Of a stretch of DNA of 64,000 nt, positions 8,201 to 39,000 are shown one piece after another. Under the pieces are notes generated by a model. That model was not told the origin of the DNA. It made no database searches and was given only the letters and a program-made list of their open reading frames with translations. The stretch comes from Pleodorina starrii (Eukaryota; Chlorophyta; Chlorophyceae; Chlamydomonadales; Volvocaceae), in the NCBI GenBank assembly GCA_030267565.1, contig BRXU01000026.1:1676880-1740879 (forward strand), written 5' to 3'. The stretch's first letter is position 1, and each line of letters opens with the position of its first letter. Both the position numbers and the translations under genes were made by a program.

Positions 8201-11200
8201 TCGACGTCGGGCGGCAGGATTCCCGCCTGCTGGGCGATGGATGCTGCGGTGGTGACGTTGTCGCCGGTCACCATGCGGACCGTGATGCCTGGCGGCGGCG
8301 GCGGCGGCGACGACGACGAGGGCGGTGGCGGCGGCGGCAACGTCAGCTGTCAGCTTGCGGACCATCACCACCAATTTTTCTTAGGGTATTTCGAGCCGGA
8401 AATCACAACCACAGGTACCGGTAACCACAAAGTAAGTAAGTAAGCGACCAAAGACGTCCAGCCCCGCCACCTCCCCCCCACCTCCTTTCCCCTTTCCCAT
8501 GTCCCTTGCCCCCCTGCAACAAGGCAGTCATCCCCGCCCCGCCCCGCCCCACCACCACCTCGGCTGCTCGCTAAGCGCCTTCTTCCTGAAGCCCCCCTCA
8601 CCTCAAGTGTGCGAAAGGTAAGCGAGAGCGAGAGCGAAAGATAGACTAGGCAAGGCAAGGCAAGGCTAGGCGCCCCCGACGGAACGCTAGGCGCCCCGGC
8701 CCATCCGCTCCCTCCCTCCCTCACCCTCCCTCCCTTCCTGCCTCACCCTCCCTCCCTCACCCTCCCTCCCCCCCTCCCTCCCGCCCTCCCTCCCTGCCTC
8801 ACCCGCCCGTTTACACGCCGCCACCGCCGCCGGCACCTCCCCTCTCAACGGGTCCTCCAGACCCAGCAGACCCACCAACACCATGTCCTGCTCACAACAC
8901 ACACACAATCACAAACACACACAACCACACACACACAACCGCACACAACCACAACCACAACCACACACAACCACACACAACCACACACAACCACACACAC
9001 ACAACCACACAACACACAACCGCACACAACCACAACCACAACCACACACAACCACAACCACACACAACCACACACAACCACAACCACACAACACACAACC
9101 GCATACAACCGCAACCACAAGCGGCGGAAGGACGTGGCAAGCAAGCCAGGACGGAGGGGTTATCCACGTATAGGCCGGAGCCGGGGTGGGGGAAGGGGTA
9201 AGAGTACGGCAAGGACAGTCCGGCAGATGGAGGCAGTTCGGCGGGGGGCGGGCGGGGGGGCGGTGAAGAGAGGAGGAGGAGGAATACCAGTGAAGGAGGG
9301 GGGGGTGCGGAGGGGGAGGCGGAGGGGGAGGGCGAGGGTGGAGGCACACGGGTGGTGCACACACGGTACAGTACGACAGAAGATGACCACGTTAACAAGA
9401 GAAGTCGGGTATCGAGATCCGACCCGACCCGGGGCAGGCCACAGGCCCACAGCAAGGCCTTCTCGAAGATGAAAAGGCAAAGTCAGGCAAAGCAGAGGAG
9501 CGACAAGTGGGAGGGGTGGTGGTGGTGAAAAAAGACGATACCGCAGCGAAGGGACGGAGATGGCGCGCGGTGGGGGAAGGAGGCAGCACACAGCGCAACG
9601 GCACATTGCGGCGATGCCTCTTACTCGCTCCAAATAGTCCGCGTCGAGGGACAGCGTCGCCGCCACGCCGCCGCCGCTGCTTCCGTCAGCAGCGGCGGCG
9701 GCGGCGCTGCCGCTGCCGTCGCCGGTGCGTCCGTACGACGCCGCGCCGCCGACCACTCCGACGCCGACGGAGGCGCAGCTGCTGGTAGTCCCGGCGGCGG
9801 CGGCGGCGGCGGCAGCGGTGGCCGTCACAGGTACGGTAGCGGCGGCGGCGCCCGCCGACGCCGCCGCTGCCGTACTGTCCTTCATGGGTACGAGCATGTC
9901 CCGGTACGCCAATGCCAGCAATCGCAGTGAGCCGTCGCCCTGGCCTGTTGGGGAGAAAGAAAGACGCGCAGGGCAGCGTGATCCACCAAAGGGGGGAAAA
10001 AGGGGGAAGGGAGGGAACAAGGGGGGAGCGGTTCCTCCACACGTCCACAGCCGCCACTGCCCCGGGCAGCTCCAGACGTACGTCAAACGTTAAACATTAG
10101 CCGTTTGATTAATGGCTGCACTCTTTTCCACATCAGGAAAAAAACTCTTCTACTATATCCCATGACCCATGTACGTAAAAACGTCGCGGTTCTGCGGCTG
10201 CATTGCCACCCTAAAGTCCGCTTTGCCCTTGCACCAGAAATCTCCCCCCAACCAATGAATGCACGGCTGCCTTCCCGGCAGGAAATTTCTTTAGCGCTAC
10301 CCTGTCCCATACATGTAATAAAAAAGATGCCATCCTATGGCTGCAATTGCACAAAGGCTGCAATGGCACAAAATCACCGCCATGAAGAATTGACGAGGAT
10401 GGGATTTGAACCCACGCCCTTACGGACTAGAACATGCCCTCCCTGGCAGATGCCAGGTAGTCCTGAATCTAGCGCCTTAGACCGCTCGGCCACCTCGTCT
10501 TCTGGATGACAAGAACGAAGATCTGCCAAATAAGCATGATTTGCCTGATTGAAACCAGTTGGTTTCCTGGGTGCTTTCAACCGCAGCGCGGTGAAGCCTG
10601 TGAAGCGACGGAAGCGAAGGCCGCCGGCCTAACACCAGGGAAGCCTTGGACCAATCGGACGGCTATTAACCCGGAGGCGCATGGTACAGGCAGGGTAGCA
10701 AACAGCAATCGGCACGCATACGCACCTCCCCGGCCGGCCGCGCCTGGTAAGTGGTGACCGCTGACTGGGAGTGCTGGTGAGGAAGGCCACTACACCACTC
10801 AACCGGGTATACCGGTACAGTCGCGTAGCCCTGCTACCGTAGGCACAGTCGCGTAGCCCTGCTACCGTAGGCCCCCCGACCTCCCGACCCGACCTGTCCG
10901 CCCAACGGCGACTAGCTTCCCAGTATCCCACACGAAACGGTCATCCCCCGGCGCCCCGGGTCCGAAACAACCCATCTCTCCCCCTCCCCAACCCCCCACC
11001 TCTGCCCGCGCACCCGCAAACGACGCCAGCAGCCTCCGCCGGTGCTCCGACGTCAGCGGCAGCAGTGTCGTACCATCGGGCCCGCCCAGCTGCCACGCGC
11101 ACCGCTCCGAAACCAGCTCCGCGGCGCCCTTGGTCAGCACCCGTACAGGCGCCAAGAAGGAGCTGCAGCCCACGGCGGCGGCGGCGCCGCCGCCAAAGTC

Positions 11201-29451: not shown

Positions 29452-32400
29452 ATGGACGTGGAACCGCCCAAGTACACGCCATCGACTGGCCGCCCTTCCG
29501 CCGGGACCATTCCCCGGGGGGCCATCGGCGGCGGCGCCCCATCGGCCGCCGCGGCAGGCTCGGGCGCCGCGGCAGCGGCTGCGGGGGCCGGCGGCGGCGG
29601 TGGCGGCGGTGTGAGCAGCAAGTTGGCTGGGCTGCAGCGGCTGAAGGAGGCGTCGACGGCGCGACTCGTCAGCCGGATACCGTCCGCCAGCGGCAGCCGG
29701 ACGACAGGTGGGGTGGGGTGGACCGCCGTAGGGCTAGGATCATCGTAAGGCTAGGACTGCCGTAGGCTATCCTGACCAAAGCCCTTTTATCAGACCCTTC
29801 GCACCCTAACACCCTAAAACTCTTGAGCCACAGGACAGGTGGGGTCTGGGGCCTGGGAGGAGAGGAGAGGGCGCTCAGAAGTCGCACTTTGCTCCACATC
29901 CCCCTATACGTGGATAACCCCACCCCGCTCCACCCCCCCGCCCGGGCCCCGGCCTACACGTGGACAACCCCCGGCCCCAACCCTACCATCCCGCCCCCCC
30001 CACCACCATCCCGCGGCCCACAGGCGATACGAACGGTTACGTGCCCTCCGCCATGACCAACTCTCAGCCAGCGCGCGCCCTCCCCTCCCGGACCAACTCC
30101 GGCGGCCGGAGCGGCGGCTTTGGTGGCGGCGGCGGCGGCAGCGGCAGCACAGCCGCGGGGTACGGCAGCTCCGCCGGGCCAGCGCCGTCGTCGGCTCGAT
30201 CCGCGTCGACGGGGCCCGCCATGGCGGCCGCCGGCCGGCCGCCCTCCGGCCGCAGTACAGGCGCTGGCGGCGGCGGCGGCGCCGTCGCCGGCTCCAGCGG
30301 CTATGGCGGCAGCAGCACCGCCAGGGTGCCGCCGTACGGCGGCGCTCATCCGTCGTCATCGTCGGCGGTTGGCGGAGGCAGCTACGGTCGCGGCGGGGCT
30401 GGCGGCGGCGGCGGATCCGCCGCCGGCGGCCGGCAGACGCCGCCGCCGCCGCCGGCGGCGACGCCGCCGCCGCCGCCGGCGGCGGCGCCGGTCGCCGCCG
30501 CGCGCCGTACTGCCGCCGCGCCGCCACCTAAGCCGCAGCCTGTCTCCCGAGCACCGCCGCCGCCGGCCCCGCCGCCGGCAAGTCACCACCGCCATAGCGA
30601 CGACGGTGCTGGTTACGGCGGCGGCGGTGGCTTCAGCGGCGGCGGCGGCGGCTTCAGTGGCGGCAGTGGTTTCGGAGCTGGCGGCATCCCGCCGGGCGCC
30701 GACGAGGCGGTCCCCTCGGGCCCCATGGTGGAGTGCGCCACCTGCGGCCGCAGCTTCAATGAGCAGGCGTACTCGAAACACGCAAAGGTAGGGAGCGCGG
30801 ATTATACGGATTATACGGAAACCGGTTCGAGGCGTGTGGGTTTCCAACTGGGGAGGACACCGAATTACGTCGGGTGGGCCTTAGTTGGCTCGGTTCGTGG
30901 GGTCAGCTTTTTGACTGTTTGTCAAGGCTGACCGCATTCCCCGACCTGTACTGCGACCTGTACTGCGATGGGGGTGGCGGTGGCGGTGGGGGTCGCAGGG
31001 GAGGGGGTCGCGGGCCGCTGTGGAGGTGGCGGTGATGGACTGATGGACTGATGTTGGCTGTTCCCGACCCCGACCCCGATCCCGACCCGGACCCGCAGGT
31101 GTGCGAGAAGGTGTTCGCCACGAAGCGGAAACCAGTCAACATGGCGGCCAAGCGACTGGAGGGTGAGGGGGGGTGGGGGGGCAGGGGGCTGGGACTCTCG
31201 GGTGTTGTCATGGAGGGTGGGAGTGGCCGCGAATGGCAGCGAATTCGGAGGGTAAAGGAGGGCCAACAGCCACGGGTCCACCGACAGGGGGGCATGGGCG
31301 CGCCGCCCATGGCCAGCACCCCGATGAACACCAAGTCGCCCGTCATCAGCACGGCAACGTATGGGGCGGGGGCGGGGCCGGGGACAGGGCAGTCGTTGCA
31401 GTGCGGGATCGGCTGCGGGGCTCCCGGTCTGACCGGGGCTCACGGCATGAGCATGTGGCTAGGGCGTGGGGCCGGGGACCTACCGTTAACACCCACACAC
31501 ACGCGCATACACACAAACACACGTTTTCGCTTTGCCTGAGCTTCAAATGCTCATCTACGGGGGCTGGTTGTCCAACCAGCGCCCATGCCGTATTGCTCCA
31601 ACTACAACTACAAAAGAAAACCCTAAAAAGCCCTCGACCCTAAAAAACCCTCTTTCCCCCCGGGCGCTGCCCTCCCTGTCCTCATCACCTCCCCCAGGCT
31701 CCGAAGCCGTCAAGTTCTTCGATCTGCGGAAGGGGCTCCCCAAGTCGGAGGCCAAGCCGCAGGCGACCGGGGCGGGGGGGGGGCCGGGCCGCGGCGGCGG
31801 CGGCGGTGCGAGTCGTGGGGCCGCAGTTTCCGCCCTGGATGCCCGGCCGCTGCCGGGGTCAAAGGTGCGTGTGTGTGGGGGGGGGGCCACAGCCTGCATC
31901 CAACTCGCGCGGTACTCTTATCTACGGTACTTTTATTTATCTACGGTGCTCTTATCGACGGTGCTCTCTCTTCCGAAGGCAACTTCCTCCACCCGCCGTC
32001 CTTCCCACCCTCCGTGCCCCCCCCCGTTACCGTTCACGGGCTCCGGCCTATACGTGGATAACCTCCCCTCCCCCCCCGCAGTGGCTCATGTTATATAATG
32101 GAGCATATCACTCCCTGACCCCCCCCCCACGGGCTCCGGCCTATACGTGGATATCCCCCCGTCTCCGTCTCCGCTGCGGTATCTTCTTTTTACCCTCCCC
32201 CCTTCTTCTGCCACTTTACCGTTCACGGGCTCCGGCCTATACGTGATAAAACCCCGCAGGTGCCCAAATGGAAGTCGCAATCGGAACAGTTGCGTATGGC
32301 CATGGCCGCCAACCGCAAGATCGCGGATGCGAAGGCCAAGGGGATCGACATAAAGGTGGGTCCAGGGGGGGGGGTTGGGTGAGTGGGGGTATGAAAGAAG

Positions 32401-36029: not shown

Positions 36030-39000
36030 TCAATTGTCATCGATGAGGTTGACGAGGCCCGCCTCAACGGCCGCCCGGCGGTACATTTCCAACCGCTCCC
36101 TGTACGGCGCGATGTACGCCTCCCACTCGGGTGGCGGGCGCAGCAGGTCGGACGTGCTGATGCCCGCCACAATCCCGATCTCGAACGGCGTGGGCTCCTG
36201 CTCGTACATTACACCGTGGCACGTTGTCGTACATACACATACACACACAGACACACGCGCGTGGGGCCAGGCGCAAATGTTCGTTTGTGTTTCACGGGAC
36301 GGCAGGAATTGGGAGGTCGGGACAGGTCGTCAAGGCCCAATTCGGTCATGGCCTCAATCCGGTGTCACAAGTCATGAGGAGTGGTGCCGGTATGCGGGCG
36401 GTGATACGTATGTGTATTGTACGTGTATTGTACGTGTATTGAACGTGTATTTAATGTGCAAGGGAATGGGCAGTGAGAGCGCCGGGATATGGTACCAGCA
36501 GGGGCAGTGCCGCATCGCCCCGCCCAACCCTCATCAGCCCCCCTTTGCCTGAAGGCCCACGCCGTGCCACGCCGCGCCACGCCCCTTCATCTCCCTTGTG
36601 CAATTTCCCTTCTCTCTAAAGTTACCACCGCCGCCCCTCTCCACCACCCACCTTTGGTTGCCTCCGCAGCTTCCAGCCCAACTCCCGCAGAGTGCGGTCC
36701 GACTTCTTCTGGTTGCACCGCATGCATGCGGTCACCTTCACAGGAAGAGCCGGAGCGAGACAGCGAGACGGCGTGACGGCGGCAGCAGCGGAATGGCGGC
36801 AACGGCAACGGCAACGGCAAGCGCGACCGTGGCGGCGAGCAGAGGAGAGATAGAGAAATAATGCTTGTAATATAATGCAGATGTCCAATGTTGACATCTC
36901 CTTCCGAGAAGAGATCAGTTGGGATCTCCCGCACAGGTTCGAATCCTGTCGACTGCGATTCTACCCGAGCTTGGCAGTCGTGCCCGAGTGGTTAAGGGGA
37001 CTGACTAGAATTAGGGAGGGACATTTTTTTCCCATTCGGAGCACTCATTGTTAAGGTTCCTCAGCGGTCAAACGCACGGGTAGACGTGTGGTACTGACAC
37101 GACGCGCGCTCTAATCTGACAGATGCAAAGAATGCAGCGGCCCCCCCCTCTGAGAAGGAGCAGGCGACATCAGGCGCGCGCTCACGCGTCCCGCATGGCC
37201 ATGCACGTTCGGTACGACAGAAAATTTGCAGTACACCGCAAGACCAGTCGTACCAGGTTCTCCCATGTCTCCTTGCCGCCCTTGCTGACGGGATGCACGT
37301 GGTCCAGCGTCAGGTCGCGGCGGGAACCGCAGTACCTGCGGATCGTGCGTGTTTGTGTTTTGGGAGTGGGGGAAATTGCGAAATTCGGGCCCAGTTGGGC
37401 GAAGAGTAAGAGTTTGGGGGGAAAAAAATGTACAGCAGTCCAGAAAGGCAGAGAGGGGCTGACAGAGGCTGGCAGCCGCAGTAGTTGTCAGGCCGAACGG
37501 AAAAGGACCCCCCAATCGGGGAAATGTGCCGAATGTCAAAACCGCAACGCAACGCAGACCACCGACAGCGTCTGTTGCACGTAAGGAAGCAAGCAGCCCC
37601 GCCCCCACCCCGTCCCCTTAAGCGCGCCCCGCCCGCGCCCAAGACCGCCTCTTTTCCCTCCTTTCCCCCCTTTTCCCCCCCATCCCCCCCCCCTTCCACT
37701 GCTATACGTGGACAACTCCCCTCCCCTGCTGAGTTACTCACTGGCAGCAGAAGCCGTCACGAACCATTATGTTGCGGCGGGAGCACGCGACCCGGGAGCA
37801 CAGGTCCTGTGTATTGCGTGTGTGTGTTTGAGTGTGTGTTTTTGGGGCGGGAAGGGGCGGGAGGGGGCGGGGAGGAGGGGTAGGGTAAGAGAAAAGATAC
37901 CGCAGCGAAGGGGGAGGGGGAGGGAAGGGTTGGAGGAGAACAGTCAACGAGTGCAGGCAAGCTGAGTGGCTGGGAAGGGTTGGGAAGGTGGGGAGGGGTT
38001 GAGGTGGATGCGGGTGCGGTGTGGGTTGTGGGTTGTGGGCGAGCGGTGGGTACCGAGGCGGAGGTTCGGAAGCCTTCCCCCTTCCCAGCCACTGCCACAC
38101 TACCGTCGCGCGCTGCCCACCCCCCCCCCCCCCATGGATAACCCCCTCCCTCCCTTACTGAACATCCAAAAAACCCCACCCCACCCCATCCCACCCCACC
38201 CTACCCCGCCCCGCCGCTCCCCCCCTCCCACCTGCATGTCAGCGGTGTACTGCGGTACCCGCAGTACGGCAGGCAGTGGGTGTTCCCCTGAACCCGTCGT
38301 ACACACGGCGGGCGGAGGGTAGTACTCCAGCACCTCCCCCTGGACCAACAGGGGGGGGAGGGGGTTGCGAGAGGGATGGGGGAACCGACGGAGGGAACAA
38401 TACGCGGCAGTACAGTACGGCAGTAGTACAGTCGACATCATGGGGGCGAGTGGCGGCGGGGCCTGCAGCTAAGCACGTTACCGTTTGCTTGTTACCGTTG
38501 CATGCAACCATCGGAACCGATTCAGTTAATCCGTTACACCACAACCTACTACAGTGGCTGTGTGGGCGGCGCCTCCGCATCCACTTCTCCTGTGCACAGG
38601 GAGATCCGCTGCCAGGAGTGGCTGTGGCTATGTCTGGTCGCATCCCGGTGGATGCAGCCGCCACCACAGCCCTGCCGTCATCGCCATGCCTCTCCTTCCA
38701 TTCCCTCTTCCCTGCTTCCCTCTTCCCTCCTCCCCCCCTTCCCTCCTCCCACTCACCTACCCACCCGCCCCTCCCTCCCTCCGACCCCCTAACCTTTCCA
38801 AAGTAGTCGAAGTGGAAGGCCTTGTACCAGGTCAGACTGTTGGGCGGGGGGAGGGGAGGGCGGGGAGAAGAGACAGGAGACAGGAGAGGGAGGCGAGGGA
38901 GGGAGTTTGAAGAGTGAGGGCATAGGGCGGGGGGGAAACCATATGGGCAGTGACGGGGACGGGGACGTGGGCAGGAGCCAGTTTATACACTCATTCATAC

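Follow-up and report, generated by a model that had tools for sequence, protein, structure and literature searches.

A circularly permuted tRNA-Ser(AGA) gene and its dispersed and tandemly amplified relatives in the green alga Pleodorina starrii

A serine tRNA locus with its halves in reversed order

The window analysed here is a stretch of 64,000 nucleotides from Pleodorina starrii (assembly GCA_030267565.1, contig BRXU01000026.1, forward-strand positions 1,676,880 to 1,740,879). Within it the 3' half of a tRNA-Ser(AGA) precedes the 5' half, and the arrangement comprises the following features:

36736-37253, minus strand: predicted 518-nt GT-AG intron of an HNH gene, whose exon pieces when joined match Pfam HNH at 2.7e-15
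36839-36888, plus strand: A/T-rich upstream stretch, possibly a TATA-type Pol III promoter element
36899-36905, plus strand: leader strand of a 7-bp leader/trailer helix (partner 37015-37021), paired in the minimum-energy fold too
36911, plus strand: purine (G) three bases before the predicted 3' cut, able to pair with C32 (37005)
36914-36957, plus strand: 3' half of tRNA-Ser(AGA), positions 38-73, ending at discriminator G73 with CCA not encoded (sequence read, pairs checked)
36958-36973, plus strand: 16-nt linker from G73 to position 1, presumably removed by RNase P and tRNase Z
36974-37010, plus strand: 5' half of tRNA-Ser(AGA), positions 1-37 (sequence read, pairs checked)
37007-37009, plus strand: anticodon AGA, in which A34 is expected, from general knowledge, to become inosine
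37015-37021, plus strand: trailer strand of the leader/trailer helix
37024-37030, plus strand: T7 run, putative Pol III terminator

All coordinates given for the halves, the linker and the T7 run by a first-pass annotation of this DNA (36899-37030) were confirmed when the sequence was reread, the terminator role of the T run being a likely one. That annotation had also held that every stem is perfect once the halves are rejoined, and indeed 23/23 cloverleaf pairs are standard; written out in full the gene has 31/31 standard pairs, namely the 23 of the cloverleaf, C32-G(-3) and seven between leader and trailer, one of which is U-G. The rejoined molecule possesses the variable arm claimed as serine-type, with a 3-bp stem, together with a discriminator G and the anticodon AGA. 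Its halves complete the cloverleaf at 37/38, the canonical intron site that had been named as the join, and this is the probable junction, the precise cut site being a prediction from sequence. The locus is best read as a nuclear gene for tRNA-Ser(AGA) with a type II circular permutation, and these features support that reading.

A geometric scan for a T arm, an acceptor complement and a D-arm-like start found a single match in the window, which is the permuted gene, and the same scan of 10 mononucleotide-shuffled windows (one strand each) gave 0 matches. Neither ARAGORN nor Rfam called the permuted locus when run on the window, as expected for a gene in this order. The gene lies wholly within the HNH-gene intron, in antisense orientation, and is preceded by sequence with an A/T content of 0.60 (-75 to -51) and 0.68 (-50 to -26) in 25-nt bins, compared with 0.39 in the kilobase upstream. 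Two other tRNA calls were noted in the window: an ARAGORN tRNA-Gly at 30416-30510 (plus strand), which is a CGCCGC-type repeat without Rfam support and probably false, and a 109-nt Rfam tRNA at 10391-10499 (minus strand), which on inspection looks like an intron-containing Leu(CAG) gene and which ARAGORN left uncalled on the window.

Permuted and ordinary serine tRNA genes in the genome

The 136-Mb assembly comprises 95 contigs, and the telomere repeat TTTTAGGG, which we take to be of the Chlamydomonas type, is present at 3 of 20 sampled contig ends. With up to three mismatches allowed, the 5' half of the window gene occurs at 84 places in this genome. A broader pattern for serine 5' halves (up to three mismatches in 22-23 specified letters) found 91 places, and reading the neighbourhood of each gave 80 permuted genes (59 AGA and 21 CGA), 10 in ordinary order and one AGA remnant that lacks an acceptor stem. 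The ordinary genes comprise six CGA (four intronless, one with an intron and one degenerate) and four TGA, all with introns, one of which is labelled Phe by ARAGORN. Anticodon AGA was thus found permuted at 59 of its 60 places, the other being the remnant. The first-pass annotation had asked whether a normal tRNA-Ser(AGA) gene exists elsewhere: none of the 91 places holds an ordinary-order Ser(AGA) gene or any Ser(GGA) gene, although CGA and TGA genes were picked up, with the limit that a strongly diverged ordinary Ser(AGA) gene could slip past the pattern. BLAST with the rejoined tRNA likewise gave near-full-length matches only at six ordinary genes, among the 40 of 87 candidates that were scored, and found no normal tRNA-Ser(AGA).

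In eukaryotes tRNA-Ser with A34 converted to inosine reads UCU, UCC and UCA, and we know of no other eukaryotic tRNA that reads UCU and UCC. Because only tRNA-Ser(IGA) reads these two codons and no ordinary AGA gene was found, the permuted family looks indispensable, and as far as can be judged from the genome sequence its members alone seem to supply the UCU/UCC reader. Whether the permuted gene is the main UCU decoder, a question raised at first reading, is therefore answered positively within the searches made. Since all copies found have their halves swapped, the cell would probably have to circularise and recut an RNA in order to read common serine codons.

Ordinary order prevails in the other families that were read: Ser(GCT) in 9/9 genes (four from an array on one contig, five elsewhere; 69 places found), Cys(GCA) in 6/6 genes, and Met in three of the four genes read from 68 places, the fourth being cut short. 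A Leu(TAA) pattern matched just four Ser(TGA) genes and picked up no Leu gene. The genome contains thousands of tRNA-like candidates, and large tandem arrays of ordinary tRNA genes are present for Lys, Trp with Glu or Lys, Arg, Met and Ser(GCT), the copy number exceeding 50 in some (L029, L030, L036, L072 and other contigs). Rfam returned nothing at the gathering threshold over the array and isolated permuted loci, and exact-pattern scans for the permuted Ser gene in viral and genome contig collections, which hold no algal nuclear genomes, gave no match.

Four of the 80 permuted copies are isolated in differing surroundings (the window gene and those termed L009, L010 and L011), while 76 lie in tandem arrays on two contigs. 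At each isolated locus a 3-kb stretch contains a single 3' half and a single 5' half, and further partner halves are absent within 1.5 kb. The window gene, L009 and L011 agree at 81/81 tRNA letters, and L010 carries one substitution, which produces a T-T mismatch in the anticodon stem. Comparison of the 1.2-kb flanks revealed no alignable sequence in 10 of 12 cases, the two matches (21 and 31 nt) falling at non-corresponding places. The window gene, L010 and L011 resemble one another by eye over the final ~20 bases of the leader. No common body extends past these ~20 nt, and dispersal as a SINE-like element or a segmental copy was rejected. The linkers of L010 and L011 are 16 nt long and a few bases removed from that of the window gene, and that of L009 is 7 nt. 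A run of T4 or longer follows soon after the 5' half in 4/4 isolated copies, and the A/T-rich upstream stretch is clear in the window gene, L011 and L009 and weak in L010.

The abundance of tandem tRNA arrays in this genome lends some plausibility to an assembly artefact, in which a tandem pair of ordinary genes collapsed into one apparently permuted gene, an option that the first-pass annotation had listed as refuting its reading. The same order recurs, however, at the three other isolated loci as well as in the window, and in 76/76 array units, with two linker lengths, so that the probability of such an artefact is close to negligible.

Tandem arrays on two contigs

The arrays comprise 59 units on contig C28 and 17 on contig C31, spaced mostly at 575 or 567 bp, and all 76 read as 3' half, 7-nt linker and 5' half. 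An unbroken cloverleaf can be drawn for 55 units (39 AGA and 16 CGA), the remaining 21 having a broken pair, and TTTT occurs within 25 nt after the 5' half in 57 of the 76. Both arrays mix AGA with CGA units, CGA accounting for 8/59 units on C28 and 13/17 on C31; the two forms represent a one-base anticodon switch within the permuted gene.

In a head-to-tail array the same letters serve two readings, and the arrays could conceivably be made of tRNA-Ser genes in ordinary order, each interrupted at 37/38 by a 479-487-nt intron and separated from the next by 7 nt, the isolated copies being fragments excised from such arrays. ARAGORN, applied to two array stretches, reported 16 Ser genes of this form, with introns of 479 or 487 nt. 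Of the four block ends, three are undecided or lean towards long introns: one end on C31 closes with a partnerless 5' half, which favours permutation, while the block starts at its other end with a degenerate 5' half, and on C28 one end continues beyond the final 5' half into an incomplete 3' half, neither of which favours permutation, and the remaining end adjoins inserted sequence. Against long introns stand the four isolated units, none of which is followed by a 3' half, or accompanied by any other partner half, over 1.5 kb, and three of which differ in linkers and flanks and so are not simple array pieces. On such a reading the TTTT runs in 57/76 units would terminate transcription by Pol III within the intron, 7 nt is too short to accommodate a terminator and a leader, and the ordinary-order Ser genes that were read have introns of ~11-16 nt or none. 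We consider genes with long introns very unlikely, and it is the isolated copies, together with the terminators and the spacing of 7 nt, that lead us to read the array units as permuted.

Variable columns are as frequent in the tRNA (11/81) as in the spacer (45/412) among the 70 clean array units (p 0.45). An apparent signal of selection on the arrays (p 6e-11 on all 76 units) was discarded; it came from six units beside inserted or foreign sequence and was gone in the other 70. The A/T-rich upstream stretch is absent from the array units. Because the tRNA columns vary as much as the spacers and this stretch is missing, some or all of the array units may be silent, and the isolated copies are presumably the active ones.

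This variability, together with the broken stem pair in 21/76 units, the mismatch in L010 and an assembly that may be incomplete, would also suit permuted copies that are all unexpressed pseudogenes or repeats, the work being done by a strongly diverged or unassembled ordinary Ser(AGA) gene. On the other hand, three isolated loci whose flanks do not align carry exactly the same tRNA letters, together with a terminator and a leader/trailer helix at each, and such identity is hard to account for unless there was selection, or recent dispersal after which the flanks were replaced. In addition, the three-mismatch pattern that recovered CGA and TGA genes found no ordinary AGA or GGA gene. On balance we regard inactivity of the whole permuted family as unlikely.

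Processing, origin and relation to known permuted tRNA genes

We consider it highly probable that the window locus is a working nuclear type II permuted tRNA-Ser(AGA) gene and belongs to a dispersed and tandemly amplified family that is seemingly the sole source of Ser(AGA). For the permuted Ser genes, transcription, circularisation, linker removal and charging are predicted from sequence features and would proceed as follows. Pol III would start upstream of the 3' half and stop at the T run past the 5' half, giving a precursor in which the acceptor stem is closed over the 16-nt linker and leader and trailer are paired below the anticodon arm. The splicing endonuclease would cut on the 5' side of position 38 and on the 3' side of position 37, whereupon a ligase would join 37 to 38 to form a circle, from whose acceptor loop RNase P and tRNase Z would excise the linker before CCA is added. 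Matches to the splicing endonuclease family PF01974 occur at two places in the genome, and six exon matches at one locus (G000:C5:3801556-3806360) identify an RtcB-type ligase gene. The fungal-type tRNA ligase model PF08302 had no match in the genome, and none in the controls either.

The 7-bp leader/trailer helix proposed at first reading can form in the window gene, where taken alone it is modestly above chance (p 0.028 against mononucleotide shuffles); the corresponding values are 0.24 for L011, 0.004 for L010, 0.14 for L009 and 0.028 for an array unit. When the best helix is summed over these five contexts, it is equalled by 1 of 10,000 mononucleotide shuffles, a figure to be read with the five contexts as only two related classes and not as five independent events. 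The two leader classes are unlike in sequence, the window gene, L010 and L011 forming one and L009 and the arrays the other, and pairing the leader of one class with the trailer of the other gives poor helices. In both classes (window gene, L009, L010, L011 and array units) a G at -3 lies opposite C32, a pair that can be likened to the A-I pair of eukaryotic tRNA introns. The 7-bp helix and C32-G(-3) together make a candidate BHB-type motif, although it is weak singly in 2/5 contexts and departs from the 4-bp geometry of a textbook hBH. In the window precursor the minimum-energy fold (-45.4 kcal/mol, compared with -34.3 kcal/mol for cloverleaf plus helix; z -1.0) keeps the leader/trailer helix and loses the cloverleaf, which we counted against a working gene; the minimum-energy fold of unmodified tRNAs is often not the cloverleaf.

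In L009, and in the one array unit tested, the leader can be aligned with the final part of the window gene's 3' half and the linker that follows it, and 0/2000 shuffles align as well. This suggests that the leader class shared by L009 and the arrays arose by duplication of a 3' half and then decayed, in keeping with the tandem-duplication model of permuted tRNA origin reviewed in PMC3978253. The sequence GATTCTACCCGA recurs at the start of the linker in one class of copies (36958-36968 in the window), in the leader of the other (L009 and the arrays) and once in an array spacer (L018).

Permuted tRNA genes have so far been regarded as rare features of compact genomes in algae and archaea. It is possible, although we hold this only tentatively and give it somewhat less than an even chance, that an essential isoacceptor family of ~80 genes is solely permuted in this alga, that all tRNA-Ser(IGA) would be made through circular RNA with the arrays contributing, and that the CGA form arose in the arrays by a change of the first anticodon base; the array tRNA columns that vary like spacers (p 0.45) and upstream regions that are not A/T-rich lower the odds that the arrays are active. 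If true, the permuted order would be a stable and amplifiable state and no oddity of compact genomes, the alga being free-living and its genome large. If the family is indeed the sole UCU/UCC reader, the circular-RNA route would be essential in a possibly tractable alga, where its enzymes could be tested. Standard tRNA finders miss permuted genes or misreport them as long-intron genes.

Soma (2014; PMC3978253) tabulates 34 permuted genes from seven species, with intervening sequences of 1-74 bp, a range that includes the 16 bp of the window gene and the 7 bp of L009 and the arrays; the genes tabulated include Ser(AGA) of Micromonas pusilla and of the Bigelowiella nucleomorph, and C. reinhardtii is given there as having no permuted tRNA genes. 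To the groups named as holders in the first-pass annotation should be added Auxenochlorella (PMC12633428) and the Amorphochlora nucleomorph (PMC4494063), which it had omitted. Its remark that it knew of no permuted gene described in a chlamydomonadalean alga agrees with the open-access literature searched, subscription papers lying mostly outside that search, and within the same scope there is no report of permuted tRNA tandem arrays. The three further isolated copies, the two array blocks, the occurrence of both AGA and CGA in the arrays and the location within the HNH intron go beyond that annotation.

The half order and the circular-intermediate model are those of Cyanidioschyzon merolae (Soma et al. 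2007, via PMC3978253), in whose small genome, in contrast, junctions occur at several positions (types I-IV). Auxenochlorella (PMC12633428, a preprint) is a core chlorophyte with nuclear permuted tRNA genes that tRNAscan-SE missed, although as a trebouxiophyte it belongs to another green-algal class. The nucleomorphs of Bigelowiella natans and Amorphochlora amoebiformis also encode permuted Ser(AGA) and Ser(CGA) with the 37/38 junction (PMC3978253, PMC4494063), but these are reduced genomes, with 5-nt linkers in B. natans and no arrays mentioned in the accounts given by these two sources. The type II Ser genes of the prasinophytes Micromonas and Ostreococcus (Maruyama et al. 2010, as tabulated in PMC3978253) share with those described here the 37/38 junction, the lack of an encoded CCA, the anticodons AGA (M. 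pusilla) and CGA, a pairable leader and trailer and an A/T-rich upstream stretch, and have linkers of 12-64 nt. Ser(AGA) and Ser(CGA) are thus a permuted pair in prasinophytes and chlorarachniophyte nucleomorphs too, and a permuted Ser family could either be ancient in green algae or have originated repeatedly. Compared with the prasinophyte genes of PMC3978253, two of the three UCN isoacceptor anticodons in P. starrii (AGA and CGA) are permuted, AGA solely so, and whereas the table in that paper lists no tandem array, ~80 copies are present here in a 136-Mb genome. The kind of gene is therefore already known, and what would surprise is the scale: amplification in a large genome, two anticodons, and an essential isoacceptor for which no ordinary gene is left.
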